Assembly: GCF_000336695.1 (NCBI RefSeq)
Contig: NZ_AOMC01000109.1
Location: 1 to 64,000 of the forward strand
Direction: 5' to 3'
Source: Halococcus morrhuae DSM 1307
GTDB lineage: Archaea > Halobacteriota > Halobacteria > Halobacteriales > Halococcaceae
Length of the DNA stretch: 64,000 nt
Of the stretch, positions 16,385-22,747 are shown in pieces. The first letter of the stretch is position 1. Each line of letters begins with the position of its first letter. The translations under genes and the position numbers were made by a program. Below the pieces are notes generated by a model, which was given only the letters and a program-made list of their open reading frames with translations, was not told where the DNA came from and ran no database searches.

Positions 16385-16768
16385 ATGGAGGTGCGCGATG
16401 CCGTCGAAGCCGACGCCGGACGGCTGGCCGCGCTCGGCGACGCGCCGGCGGAGACGATGCGAAATCTGGTTCACGACAGAACCGTGCGCGTGGCGGCAGA
16501 AGACGACGATCTCGTCGGGTTCGTGAGTTTCGATGCCCGCCGCGACGCGGTCCACGTCACCCAGTTCGACGGCCAGCCGGAAGCCGTCGAGCGCCTGCTC
16601 GACGAACCGGCACGGTTCGCGCGGAGCGAGGGGATGGCCGCCGAACTGCTCGTCGAGGCGTCGCGAGAGGAACTCAGGCGCGCCGCGACGGACGCCGGCT
16701 TCCGGGAGGTCGGCCCGGGGCCGCGCTTCGACGGCGCACCGACGGTGAAGTTTCGACTCGAAACGTAG
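16385..16768 (+). CDS. GNAT-like acetyltransferase domain protein
   Basis: 127 residues starting MEVRDAVEADAGRLAAL, typical of the first strand and helix of GNAT enzymes. The central strand DDLVGFVSFDARRDAVHVTQF fits beta2-beta4, but the acetyl-CoA loop is degenerate (EPARFARSEGMAAELLVEA), and the end GFREVGPGPRFDGAPTVKFRLE fits beta5-beta7. It may be a divergent or inactive member. It stands alone between lysC and a toxin-antitoxin locus, and T6 at 16839-16844 may terminate its transcript. Confidence 0.7.
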   Translation: MEVRDAVEADAGRLAALGDAPAETMRNLVHDRTVRVAAEDDDLVGFVSFDARRDAVHVTQFDGQPEAVERLLDEPARFARSEGMAAELLVEASREELRRAATDAGFREVGPGPRFDGAPTVKFRLET

Positions 16769-16838
16769 GGGTTGCGTAAACGAGTGCCACGCTCTGCGAA
16801 GCGAGGACAGTTGGGTCGAGCCGTTTCCGTCCGGTGGA

Positions 16839-17784: not shown

Positions 17785-19335
17785 TCAGTAGAACTTCTGG
17801 ATCGTCAGATCGAGCGTGTCGAGATCGACGATCGGTGCGTAGCCCACGTCGGGATCGATGTTGACGCTCTGCTGGAAGCTCGTCTGTTCCTGCCAGCAGC
17901 CCGAGTTGAGCGCGAGCACGTTGTGGTACTTGCCGTAGCCGAGTTTGTGGACGTGGCCGGTGTGGAAGATATCGGGTACCTCCTCCATCACGAGATAATC
18001 GCGTTCCTCGGGTGCGATGCGCGTGTGACCGCCGTACTGCGGGGCGACGTGACGCTTCTTGAGGAGCTGGTACATCGGTTTGTGCGGCTCGTCGTAGCTG
18101 GCCTTCTCCTCCGGGAGTTCGGCGATGACCTCGTCGAGGCTCACGCCGTGGTACATCAGGATCGAGACGCCCTCGATCGTCACCGTCGAGGGGTTGCCCG
18201 AGATGCGCGCGTCGTGGACGTCCATGATCTCCCTGAGGTCGTCGTCGAACCCGGGCTGGGGCTCGGCGAGGCGGACGGCGTCGTGGTTGCCCGGGATCAG
18301 GAGGATCTCCATGTCGCCGGGCACCTCCTTGAGATACTCCGCAAACTGCTCGTACTGCTCGTAGATGTCGACGATGTCGAGCTCCTCGTCCTGGTTCGGA
18401 TAGACGCCCACACCCTCGACCATGTCGCCCGCGACGAGGAGATACTCGACGGCACTCGCCTCCTCGGTGTGGAGCCAGTCGGCGAACGCCGACCACGCGT
18501 CGGCGGCGAACTCCTGGCTGCCGACGTGGACGTCCGAGATGAGCGCCGCGCGGACGTGGCGGTCGGCCGTCGAGGGCGTGTACGTGCGCGGAACGTCAGG
18601 GAAGTGGAGATCGTCGACGAACAGGATGCCACCGTCGCCCGCAAGCGTGCCCTCGACCGCAATGACCTCGTCGAGCAGGAGTTCGTCGACGACGCTCGCG
18701 AGATCGCGATCCTTCATGATGAGACACGGGAAGGTGCCGGTGGTGTCCTCGAGTTCGACCAGCCAGTGGCCGTTGGCCGTCGAGCGGATGTCGGAGATCA
18801 TCCCGACGATGGCGGCGTCGCTGCCGCCGGCCATCGCCTCGACGGCCTCGGTGGGACGGTGGTTGATCCGCGAGCGAAGCAGTTTCGAGAGCCGTTCGTA
18901 GCGATCGCGGAAGGTCCGCACGAAGTCGGCGTACTCGCCCGTCCCGGTCGACCGCCCCGTGATGTCGCCCGCGATGGCCAGCGATCGGAGCTCGGGATCG
19001 ACCGAGCGCTCCGACCGGCCGGTGGCTCCCCCATCGGCATCCCCCGACCCCTTCGTTTCGACTGGAGCAGTGGGTTCGGTTTCGGATTGCATGTCGTGGT
19101 TTCCACCCGAAACAGAGGGGTTGTGAGTCGCTGTCGTGGCGTCGTTCGTGTCGATGCTCCGTCGGACGTGCTCGGCCGAGAGCGTGAGCGCGTCGTCGGG
19201 GACCGACTCGATGACGCGCTCGATGGCGCGCTCGGGATCGTTCGCCCCGGCGATGAGCGTGACGGCCTCGCGCTCGGCGTTGTAGCCGCGGCTGGCGAGT
19301 TCGGTGACGATGCGGACGGAGCTCGAACGCGGCAC
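17785..19335 (-). CDS. polB: DNA polymerase D small subunit (DP1), 3'-5' exonuclease
   Basis: The proofreading subunit of the archaeal replicative polymerase PolD. All phosphodiesterase motifs are intact: ISDVHVGS, VAGDMVEG, IPGNHD, MYHGVS and HTGHVH, so the exonuclease should be active. An OB domain precedes them, and an N-terminal helical domain (VRIVTELASRGYN) is joined by a low-complexity linker at about residues 65-110. Start choice: TTG 19362, GTG 19350 and GTG 19335 are all open; GTG 19335 gives MPRSSSVRIV, closest to the family N-terminus as I recall it, with CTATCCTTTT about 30 bases upstream. The linker DNA contains two inverted ORB-like repeats. It neighbours sec11 and orc1 as in other haloarchaea. 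Confidence 0.93.
   Translation of the reverse strand: MPRSSSVRIVTELASRGYNAEREAVTLIAGANDPERAIERVIESVPDDALTLSAEHVRRSIDTNDATTATHNPSVSGGNHDMQSETEPTAPVETKGSGDADGGATGRSERSVDPELRSLAIAGDITGRSTGTGEYADFVRTFRDRYERLSKLLRSRINHRPTEAVEAMAGGSDAAIVGMISDIRSTANGHWLVELEDTTGTFPCLIMKDRDLASVVDELLLDEVIAVEGTLAGDGGILFVDDLHFPDVPRTYTPSTADRHVRAALISDVHVGSQEFAADAWSAFADWLHTEEASAVEYLLVAGDMVEGVGVYPNQDEELDIVDIYEQYEQFAEYLKEVPGDMEILLIPGNHDAVRLAEPQPGFDDDLREIMDVHDARISGNPSTVTIEGVSILMYHGVSLDEVIAELPEEKASYDEPHKPMYQLLKKRHVAPQYGGHTRIAPEERDYLVMEEVPDIFHTGHVHKLGYGKYHNVLALNSGCWQEQTSFQQSVNIDPDVGYAPIVDLDTLDLTIQKFY
19041..19123. repeat. Inverted pair of ORB-like elements inside the polB linker
   Basis: Two copies resemble the origin recognition boxes of the nearby origin. 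19041-19067 (minus reading) contains TCGAAACGAAGGGGT, an exact 15-mer shared with the origin ORB at 22719-22747, followed by CGGGGG. 19101-19123 (plus reading) begins TTCCACCCGAAAC and continues AGAGGGGTTG, matching the origin ORB at 22442-22473 at 19 of 23 positions. The two face apart with G-strings outward, 33 bases between them, the same polarity as the two flanking ORBs of the origin. The encoded residues (about 71-99 of DP1) belong to a variable linker. Orc1 binding is an inference. Confidence 0.65.
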
Positions 19336-19419
19336 GGAGACGGATTTCACGGCGGGAACCAAAAGGATAGCGGAGGTGGGAAGGAAACGTTGAAACGACC
19401 GCCGGCGGTATGGGTGTCA

Positions 19420-20391: not shown

Positions 20392-22161
20392 TTAGCTGTC
20401 GAAGCGTGCCTGGACGAACGGTTGGACGTCCTCGATATCGCCGAGTCGAGAGTCGCTCGTGAGGACGGCTTCGGTGTCGTCGATCGGGACGGAGAGGTTC
20501 ATCTCCTTGGTGCGACCGTATCTTCCCTTCGAGACGACGACCGCGTTGACGATGCCGAGCATGTCGAGTTCGGAGATGAGATCGGTGACGCGGCGCTGGG
20601 TCAGCACGTCGGCGTCGATCTCCTCGCAGAGCCGGCGGTAGATGTTGTAGACCTCGCCGGTGTTGATGTTCTGTGCGCCGTTGCGTTCGAGCAGGATCAC
20701 GGCGAAGAGGACGACCTTCGACTGGGTGGGGAGAGTGCGGACGACCTCCACGACCCTGTCGAGCTCGATCTTCTCCTGGGCATCGCGGACGTGGTCCTCG
20801 CCGACGCGCTCGGTCTGGCCGCGCTCGGCGAGTTCGCCGGCAGTGCGGAGGAGATCGAGCGCGCGCCGAGCATCGCCGTGTTCCTGAGCGGCGAACGCAG
20901 CACAGAGCGGGATGACGTCCTCCGAGAGAGCGTTCTCGACGAAGGCGATGTCCGCACGCGCCGAGAGGATGTCCCGGAGCTGGGTCGCGTCGTACGGCGG
21001 GAAGACGATCTCCTCCTCGCCGAGGGAGGATTTGACCCGCGGATCGAGGAACTCGGTGAACTTGAGATCGTTCGAGATGCCGAGAATCGAGACCCGCGAG
21101 TTCTCCAGTTCGGAGTTCATCCGAGAGAGGTTGTAGAGCGTGTCGTCGCCGCTCTTCTCGACGAGCTTGTCGATCTCGTCGAGCATGATGACGACGACGC
21201 GCTCGTGGTAATCGACCGCCTCGAAGAAGGTGGAGTAGACGCGATCGGTCGGCCAACCGGTCATCGGCACGGGTTCGAACTCGTCGAGATCGGCTTCGAG
21301 CTGCTCGATCCGGCGTTCGATCCCGTCGACGGAGTCGAACTCGACGGCAGGGGAGTCGGTGGCGTCGGGTTCGGCATCGTCAGGATCGACGACGTCGGGA
21401 TCGTCGAGCACCCCTGGATCGGAGCGGGCGCGCTCGGCGAGATCGCGGAGGTCGGCGAGTCGCTCCTCGATGTGTCGTTCGTTGGCGTCGATGAACGTGT
21501 TCGCGAGCTGGGCGAGCACGCGATACTGAGTATCCGTCACCTCGCAGTTGATGTATTCGACCTCGCAGGGGACGGTATACTTCTGTGAGGTGGTTTCGAG
21601 TTCGTTGCTGACGAACTTCGCGCTCGCGGTCTTGCCCGTGCCGGTTTTCCCATAGATCAGGATGTTCGATGGGGTTTCGCCGCGGAGCGCGCCGACGAGC
21701 ACCGTCGCCATGTTGTTGATCTGTTCGTTGCGATGGGGGAGCCGTTCGGGCGTGTACGAGGGTCTGAGGACATCCTTGTTCTCGAAGATCGGTTCGCCGC
21801 TGAGGAGGTCGTCGAACAGCCCCGGTGCGGCGTCGGTTCGCGATTCGTCCGCGTCCGCGGGTGCGTCGGTATCGGTAGTGTCGGTAGCGTCTGTCTCGTC
21901 TGTCGCGTCGTCACTGTTCGGTACATCGCCATCACCGTCGGTATCGGTCGAGACGGTTGCCCGGCCGGTGGTCGGCTCCGTCGAGACACCGTCGTCAGTA
22001 TCGACGGCGTCATCGGTACCGACGGTGTCGTCGGCATCGACGTCATCGTCAGCACTGATGCGATCATCAGCACTCGTGATATCGTCGGAATCAGCGCTAT
22101 CTGGCGGTGCCGACGAATCGTCGGCGGTTCGGTCGTCGGATGGTCGGTCGTTTCCTGTCAT
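20392..22161 (-). CDS. orc1: Orc1/Cdc6 replication initiator
   Basis: 589 residues, clearly longer than the usual 400 or so. Residues 1-112 are an acidic Asp/Thr/Ser-rich tail built of degenerate DD-x4-DD repeats. The AAA+ domain follows with Walker A GKTGTGKT (171-178), Walker B VVIMLDEIDKL, and an additional acidic insert before Walker B (DPDVVDPDDAEPDATDS). A C-terminal winged helix ends the protein (INTGEVYNIYRRLCEEI...). Orc1 proteins recognise ORBs and open the origin. The gene points away from the 813-base origin region, and an ORB-like copy overlaps the place where its promoter should be, suggesting autoregulation. Confidence 0.95.
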   Translation of the reverse strand: MTGNDRPSDDRTADDSSAPPDSADSDDITSADDRISADDDVDADDTVGTDDAVDTDDGVSTEPTTGRATVSTDTDGDGDVPNSDDATDETDATDTTDTDAPADADESRTDAAPGLFDDLLSGEPIFENKDVLRPSYTPERLPHRNEQINNMATVLVGALRGETPSNILIYGKTGTGKTASAKFVSNELETTSQKYTVPCEVEYINCEVTDTQYRVLAQLANTFIDANERHIEERLADLRDLAERARSDPGVLDDPDVVDPDDAEPDATDSPAVEFDSVDGIERRIEQLEADLDEFEPVPMTGWPTDRVYSTFFEAVDYHERVVVIMLDEIDKLVEKSGDDTLYNLSRMNSELENSRVSILGISNDLKFTEFLDPRVKSSLGEEEIVFPPYDATQLRDILSARADIAFVENALSEDVIPLCAAFAAQEHGDARRALDLLRTAGELAERGQTERVGEDHVRDAQEKIELDRVVEVVRTLPTQSKVVLFAVILLERNGAQNINTGEVYNIYRRLCEEIDADVLTQRRVTDLISELDMLGIVNAVVVSKGRYGRTKEMNLSVPIDDTEAVLTSDSRLGDIEDVQPFVQARFDS

Positions 22162-22183: not shown

Positions 22184-22206
22184 GACCCCTTCCTTTCGGA
22201 TGGAGG
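22184..22206 (-). repeat. ORB-like element at the orc1 promoter
   Basis: Reading on the minus strand it begins CTCCATCCGAAAGG and continues AAGGGGTC. It matches the polB-internal copy at 20 of 24 aligned positions. It lies 23-45 bases upstream of the orc1 ATG, where a TATA box or BRE would be expected, so Orc1 bound here could repress its own gene. Confidence 0.55.
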
Positions 22207-22718: not shown

Positions 22719-22747
22719 GTTCCACTCGAAACGAAGGGGTGGGGGTG
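22719..22747 (+). repeat. Origin recognition box with G-string
   Basis: Plus-strand reading GTTCCACTCGAAACGAAGGG, then a G-rich tail. This is the mirror partner of the element at 22442-22473, differing from it by two bases in the first 20. Its TCGAAACGAAGGGGT 15-mer recurs exactly inside polB. Confidence 0.8.

Follow-up and report, generated by a model that had tools for sequence, protein, structure and literature searches.

The polB gene of Halococcus morrhuae DSM 1307, which encodes the small subunit of the family D DNA polymerase, carries within its reading frame two inverted boxes of the type that marks the chromosomal origin oriC1. These boxes very probably constitute an Orc1-type pair maintained by selection on the DNA, with Orc1 as the predicted ligand. 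We propose that the pair is a dual-coding element, in which two oriC1-type Orc1-recognition boxes would be kept by DNA selection within the polB frame. The evidence comes from a window of 64,000 nucleotides (contig NZ_AOMC01000109.1, from an assembly of 2.99 Mb in 167 contigs) and from related genomes.

An inverted pair of origin-type boxes in polB

The features of the window that bear on the pair are as follows.

16758-16772, plus strand: box resembling an origin recognition box (ORB), one mismatch to the 15-mer given below, overlapping the end of a small ORF (16385-16768)
17785-19335, minus strand: polB, small subunit (DP1) of family D DNA polymerase (PolD); NCBIfam NF003116, E = 1.5e-288
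19047-19067, minus strand: box 1, ORB-type, CTCCAGTCGAAACGAAGGGGT, on the sense strand of polB, encoding P-V-E-T-K-G; 35.8 bits
19068-19100, no strand: 33-bp spacer between the 21-mers, of variable sequence and not AT-rich, from a spacer comparison over 45 pairs
19101-19121, plus strand: box 2, ORB-type, TTCCACCCGAAACAGAGGGGT, on the antisense strand of polB, the sense DNA encoding N-P-S-V-S-G-G; 28.3 bits
19420-20382, plus strand: signal peptidase gene, between polB and orc1
20392-22161, minus strand: orc1, Orc1/Cdc6 initiator of oriC1; NCBIfam ORC1-type replication protein, PDB relatives 2qby and 2v1u
22185-22205, minus strand: short ORB-type box lacking an extended G-string and lying 24-44 bp ahead of the orc1 start codon
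22442-22472, minus strand: left ORB of oriC1 with extended G-string, from the sequence
22720-22747, plus strand: right ORB of oriC1 with extended G-string, from the sequence

polB lies downstream of orc1 with the signal peptidase gene intervening, and beyond orc1 is oriC1, which consists of two inverted ORBs carrying extended G-strings and coincides with the peak of cumulative GC skew. The solved structures nearest to the window's Orc1 are the archaeal Orc1 chains 2qby and 2v1u, which we take to be Orc1-DNA complexes. Judged by codon use, the polB start is most likely the GTG at 19335 rather than the TTG at 19362, since GTG is used in all 86 genes that have valine at that alignment column.

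An earlier note on this DNA had described an inverted ORB-like pair in the part of polB that encodes the linker, and the observation is confirmed. The two boxes are present at 19047-19067 (minus strand) and 19101-19121 (plus strand), with their G-strings pointing outward as in oriC1 and 33 bp between the 21-mers, and about 3.4 kb separate box 1 from the closer of the two origin ORBs. The exact 15-mer TCGAAACGAAGGGGT that box 1 shares with an origin ORB has only two occurrences in the 2.99-Mb assembly, one at 19047-19061 (minus strand) in polB and one at 22726-22740 (plus strand) in oriC1. Of 23 positions compared in the stretch containing box 2, 19 are identical to the other ORB of oriC1. The additional box at 16758-16772 is kept only in the two closest relatives (L009 and L010).

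The boxes were scored with a 21-column ORB matrix built from 129 G-string ORBs in 74 loci. Because the search expression held a 13-bp core, GAAAC[AG]AAGGGGT, fixed, only columns -8 to -1 of the matrix carry independent information; within these columns TCCA is almost invariant in oriC1 ORBs, and likewise in the polB boxes. As the earlier note had suggested, we compared the pair with shuffled codons, using 4000 synonymous shuffles of polB that preserved both protein and codon usage. None reached the observed pair: the window scored 64.1 against 34.2 for the best shuffled pair, and the single boxes, at 35.8 and 28.3 bits, exceeded shuffle maxima of 27.8 and 22.5.

The pair is conserved across haloarchaea at a fixed offset

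We located polB in 146 genomes of the order and extracted loci with flanks for 80 genomes from other families and 17 family relatives; among these, L025 has no polB and L021 a broken polB frame. A box was called present at 15 bits or more, a threshold attained by 15 of 3840 shuffled strands. The earlier note had held that a lack of ORB matches at this place in close relatives would count against the element. Matches were found: of 12 scorable relatives, drawn from two genera of the window's family, 11 have the complete pair with an offset of exactly 62 nt, and the remaining one (L020) combines a strong with a weak box, the offset being unchanged. Among 96 polB genes from 12 haloarchaeal families, 45 carry both boxes and 26 carry one (20 the sense box, 6 the antisense box), with neither reaching threshold in 25; the genomes are related to one another, and these counts are not counts of independent events. 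In 85 of the 96, the best pair at an offset of 62 or 65 beats all 100 synonymous shuffles of that gene. Conservation and the synonymous shuffles together rule out a chance match.

Spacing is equally constrained. The offset is 62 nt in 13 and 65 nt in 32 of the 45 two-box genes, with no other value among them and a spacer of 33 or 36 bp throughout, as against 48 distinct offsets spanning 187-657 nt among 61 oriC1 core pairs. Larger in-frame offsets do occur, at 77 in Halobellus rufus and 83 in Halorubellus salinus. Across the 80 named loci, whose taxa overlap the main set, both boxes are found in many Haloarcula, Natronorubrum, Haladaptatus, Halorientalis and Halomicrobium genomes, among others, and a single box is found in Halorubrum and several Halorussus. 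The boxes are degraded or absent in most Haloferax sampled, in some Natrinema and in family f7, which means that not every lineage needs the element. In the 21 loci read from outgroups of the phylum outside Halobacteria, the corresponding place holds no pair. Genomes without polB boxes showed no clear excess of compensating boxes within 5.5 kb of polB (1.00 versus 0.80), and we found no clear signal of local compensation over that distance.

Codon choice points to selection on the DNA

Two short linker peptides, DPSVSTG and PVET[E/K]G, are conserved about 13 residues apart in otherwise variable surroundings, and they are translations of the opposite strands of one ORB box. For every alignment column we set the codons against the usage of the gene they came from. 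Of the 470 polB columns, the five with the strongest codon bias all fall within the two boxes: Glu98 is GAA in 86 of 87 genes (27 expected), Val80 is GTT in 68 of 69 (7.0 expected), Pro96 is CCA in 74 of 82 (8.5 expected), Gly83 is GGA in 69 of 75 (9.1 expected) and threonine at column 183 is ACT in 54 of 54 (5.1 expected). Because the ranking was made within one gene, shared ancestry affects all columns alike.

These data bear on the idea that selection acts on the peptide motif DPSVSTG...PVETEG and that the DNA match is a by-product. Both peptides are indeed conserved in many haloarchaeal DP1 linkers, but their codons, GTT, ACT and GAA, are rare and yet used almost without exception, and two different peptides correspond to the same ORB DNA read from opposite strands. 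The codon bias refutes the protein motif as sole cause, and we regard this explanation as almost certainly wrong. Selection might instead act on an RNA hairpin or a DNA cruciform formed by the inverted repeat, as the two boxes are nearly complementary within one transcript. However, identity between the boxes of the same gene (17.23 of 21 positions) matches that of permuted pairs (17.17, s.d. 0.14), which amounts to no covariation; the fold energy in the window is no better than that of shuffles (z = 0.06); and each box varies mainly where ORBs also vary. Since the boxes vary independently of each other, the element is not an RNA hairpin, and a selected hairpin or cruciform is exceedingly improbable.

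The proposal of the earlier note that selection operates at the DNA level is thus strongly supported by codon bias, shuffles and conservation, and this selection extends over most of the order. The note's view of the linker as a region of relaxed protein constraint needs qualification: two short conserved peptides are present there, but, judging by codon choice, it is the DNA that is kept.

The pair lacks several features of an origin

The polB boxes have the sequence core of origin ORBs without the elements that surround it. The extended G-string after GGGGT is absent, with mostly 0-3 G in the next 6 nt of 65 sense and 51 antisense polB boxes. The spacer is 35% AT, equal to the gene mean, versus 50% in oriC1 spacers. 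In addition, the pair is not intergenic beside an orc1/cdc6 gene and instead lies inside polB, with the signal peptidase gene between. In Haloarcula hispanica, oriC1 no longer replicates autonomously once either of its extended G-strings is mutated (PMC3936714).

The earlier note had listed a secondary origin among the possible functions, and the orientation of the boxes, inverted with G-strings outward as in oriC1, speaks for a secondary or dormant origin. Against it stand the intragenic position and the short spacer of 33-36 bp at 35% AT, the 62/65-nt offset that compares with 187-657 nt at oriC1, and the requirement for extended G-strings in H. hispanica (PMC3936714). Because the extended G-string and the AT-rich spacer are missing, we consider origin function highly improbable.

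Boxes of the same short kind lie in front of orc1 itself. Of 83 orc1 genes (the window and L009-L105), 55 have such a box in the 120 bp ahead of the gene, always on the same strand and mostly 24-45 bp before the start codon. It is likely an autoregulation site of orc1. These boxes also lack the extended G-string, which suggests that short boxes serve control rather than initiation.

ORB-type boxes gather around oriC1

We searched whole genomes with the pattern TYCANNNGAAACRRAGGGGT, allowing at most one mismatch and using the reversed pattern as control; the counts rest on pattern searches, and positions beyond the extracted loci on this one pattern. In 20 genomes there were 4-13 matches per genome and none for the control, which gave one match in one genome of a separate search. 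Fifteen chromosomes with a clear oriC1 contain 139 sites, 44 at the origin core, 21 in polB and 74 elsewhere. Those 74 are strikingly concentrated: 34 lie within 30 kb of oriC1, where a uniform spread would put about 1.5, and the corresponding figures are 67 against about 12 within 250 kb, and 3 against about 50 beyond 500 kb. They show no overall orientation bias, with 39 pointing outward and 35 inward, and this absence together with the reversed control rules out an artefact of strand composition near the origin. At 20 sampled origin-region loci, where genes were called heuristically from codon usage, the boxes are mostly intergenic and adjoin unrelated genes, which argues against an Orc1 regulon of replication genes, and we rejected that idea.

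The distance between polB and the origin varies among genomes. At polB-orc1 distances of 10-37 kb, several Haladaptatus-type genomes and G046 retain the pair, and other genomes with such distances have one box or weak boxes. In one genus (g36; G087, G091, G201, G202 and G204; loci L320, L321, L069 and L094) oriC1 is 150-190 kb from polB in four genomes and 1.5 Mb away in G087. The polB pair is still present in this genus at an offset of 65, the boxes of G087 scoring 35.8 and 18.5 bits, and the polB genes of G087 and G091 differ at 17% of bases. Retention of the pair despite this distance fits a role linked to polB, or slow decay. In G087, orc1 itself is 1.35 Mb from oriC1, so that origin and initiator gene are uncoupled.

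Possible roles of the polB pair

The pair belongs, we suggest, to the wider set of boxes around oriC1 and at the orc1 promoter. Orc1 would contact each box through TYCANNNGAAAC and the short GGGG run, and a complex bound without an extended G-string and an AT-rich spacer probably loads no MCM. The crowding of boxes near oriC1 suggests an initiator reservoir: sites close to the origin would double soon after firing, leaving less free Orc1 and damping re-initiation, a role also proposed for oriC2D in Haloarcula and for the DnaA boxes near the E. coli origin. We tentatively favor such a reservoir, with Orc1 binding and titration, as the main role of the pair and give it close to an even chance. 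Titration of Orc1 had been one of the suggestions of the earlier note, and it is the best fit to the origin-centered distribution of boxes, given that the pattern search of 15 chromosomes places boxes outside the origin yet gathered near it. The boxes in hef and the inverted pair of genus g4, both described below, also speak for it. On the other side, there is no dense cluster, with two boxes here and other singles and pairs spread over about 250 kb, and a model of pure origin proximity does not predict the g36 pair at 150-190 kb and 1.5 Mb. The degraded or missing boxes of some lineages, and the lack of a clear excess of other boxes near polB in genomes without the pair, also count against it.

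That same genus, by keeping the pair far from oriC1, makes a polB-linked role a serious rival. Orc1 bound 214-288 nt inside the gene could block or tune elongation and so tie the supply of the PolD small subunit to how much initiator is present or what state it is in. Consistent with this, the pair stays in several genomes with polB 10-25 kb from orc1, and also where 150 kb to 1.5 Mb lie between polB and oriC1. Leaving aside oriC1 and the orc1 promoter, no other ORB-type element that we found is shared so widely, and the boxes at that promoter suggest that short boxes are used in transcription control. Orc1-2 is a known damage-response regulator (PMC9738581), which we also count in favor. But the boxes are intragenic rather than at the polB promoter, and other boxes of the family lie near unrelated genes around the origin, and we judge regulation of polB somewhat unlikely. 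Both roles could be joined if the paired boxes held Orc1 and let its occupancy set polB expression, coupling oriC1 firing to polymerase supply in a manner that survives separation from the origin; we think this unlikely. It is also conceivable that another origin-region protein, with a function in chromosome segregation or nucleoid organization, shares the ORB sequence and binds here, the boxes serving as parS-type or handcuffing sites. The polB boxes, being placed in coding DNA close to the origin, resemble bacterial parS sites in position. The clustering of boxes around oriC1 and the existence in Crenarchaeota of a nucleoid protein with affinity for an origin motif (PMC12141716) favor this possibility. 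However, what is present here is the oriC1 ORB core itself, which is found in front of orc1 as well, and no candidate protein was identified; we consider a different ligand quite improbable.

Relation to known systems

The polB boxes share with the haloarchaeal oriC1 ORBs (Orc1/Cdc6A boxes) the same 21-bp core and the arrangement as an inverted pair with G-strings outward. They differ from them in having no extended G-string and no AT-rich element, in their fixed offset of 62 or 65 nt and in their location inside a coding sequence. The closest archaeal parallel is oriC2D of Haloarcula hispanica, an ORB-rich region that does not replicate autonomously and lowers oriC2 activity (PMC3936714). Like the polB pair, oriC2D has ORB-type boxes outside the origin and downstream of an initiator gene, in that case cdc6E, and no origin features. 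However, oriC2D is intergenic, has 11 boxes and belongs to oriC2 and Cdc6E, unlike the two codon-embedded boxes of oriC1/Orc1 type in polB.

In E. coli, DnaA boxes crowd near oriC (PMC12371093), and datA and the origin-proximal DnaA boxes are likewise initiator boxes near the origin that are suited to titration. The archaeal system involves Orc1 and ORBs and is much sparser in boxes, with about 4-13 per genome when one mismatch is allowed. DnaA autoregulation, in which initiator boxes lie at the initiator promoter, resembles the box before orc1 in 55 of 83 genomes; the polB pair, in contrast, sits 214-288 nt inside a different gene. Our results suggest that a gathering of initiator boxes round the origin is common to haloarchaeal chromosomes and the chromosome of E. 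coli. We found no description of ORBs inside polB in the literature searched, which comprised open-licence papers. How archaea restrain over-frequent origin firing is poorly understood, and the polB pair provides a conserved and exactly placed element, both boxes of which can be destroyed by synonymous codon changes that leave the protein untouched. It also shows that what looks like a short "conserved peptide motif" in a disordered linker can be the reflection of an element in the DNA.

Recurrent boxes at other places

Several boxes away from polB recur at matching places. In one genus of the window's family (g4), which has no polB pair, all three genomes (L254-L256) have a different inverted pair, offset by exactly 89 nt and situated about 12 kb away from oriC1. 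The offsets of 62 and 65 nt in polB are near six helical turns, but those of 77, 83 and 89 break phase, so we make no claim of helical phasing. In two Halococcus-type genomes, single boxes occupy matching places about 120 and 180 kb from oriC1. Tandem boxes lie about 110 kb from oriC1 (measured in three) in four genera of a Natrialbaceae-type family (f6; L246-L249), in the same intergenic place, with an M48 peptidase gene on one side and a conserved gene on the other. The linker of hef, a helicase-nuclease gene, carries an ORB-type box in two families and in two different reading frames (L278 and L279 in frame 1; L284, L291, L292 and L296 in frame 2), and this place is degraded in genus g36, whose hef is more than 400 kb from oriC1 in closed chromosomes. 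Finally, in L266, L269 and L272, from genera of Haladaptatus and Halomicrococcus type (g21 and g50), a small DUF5789-type gene is followed directly by an ORB-type box, at 9-19 bp past its stop codon; the assignment of the gene comes from a Pfam match for the L269 protein.
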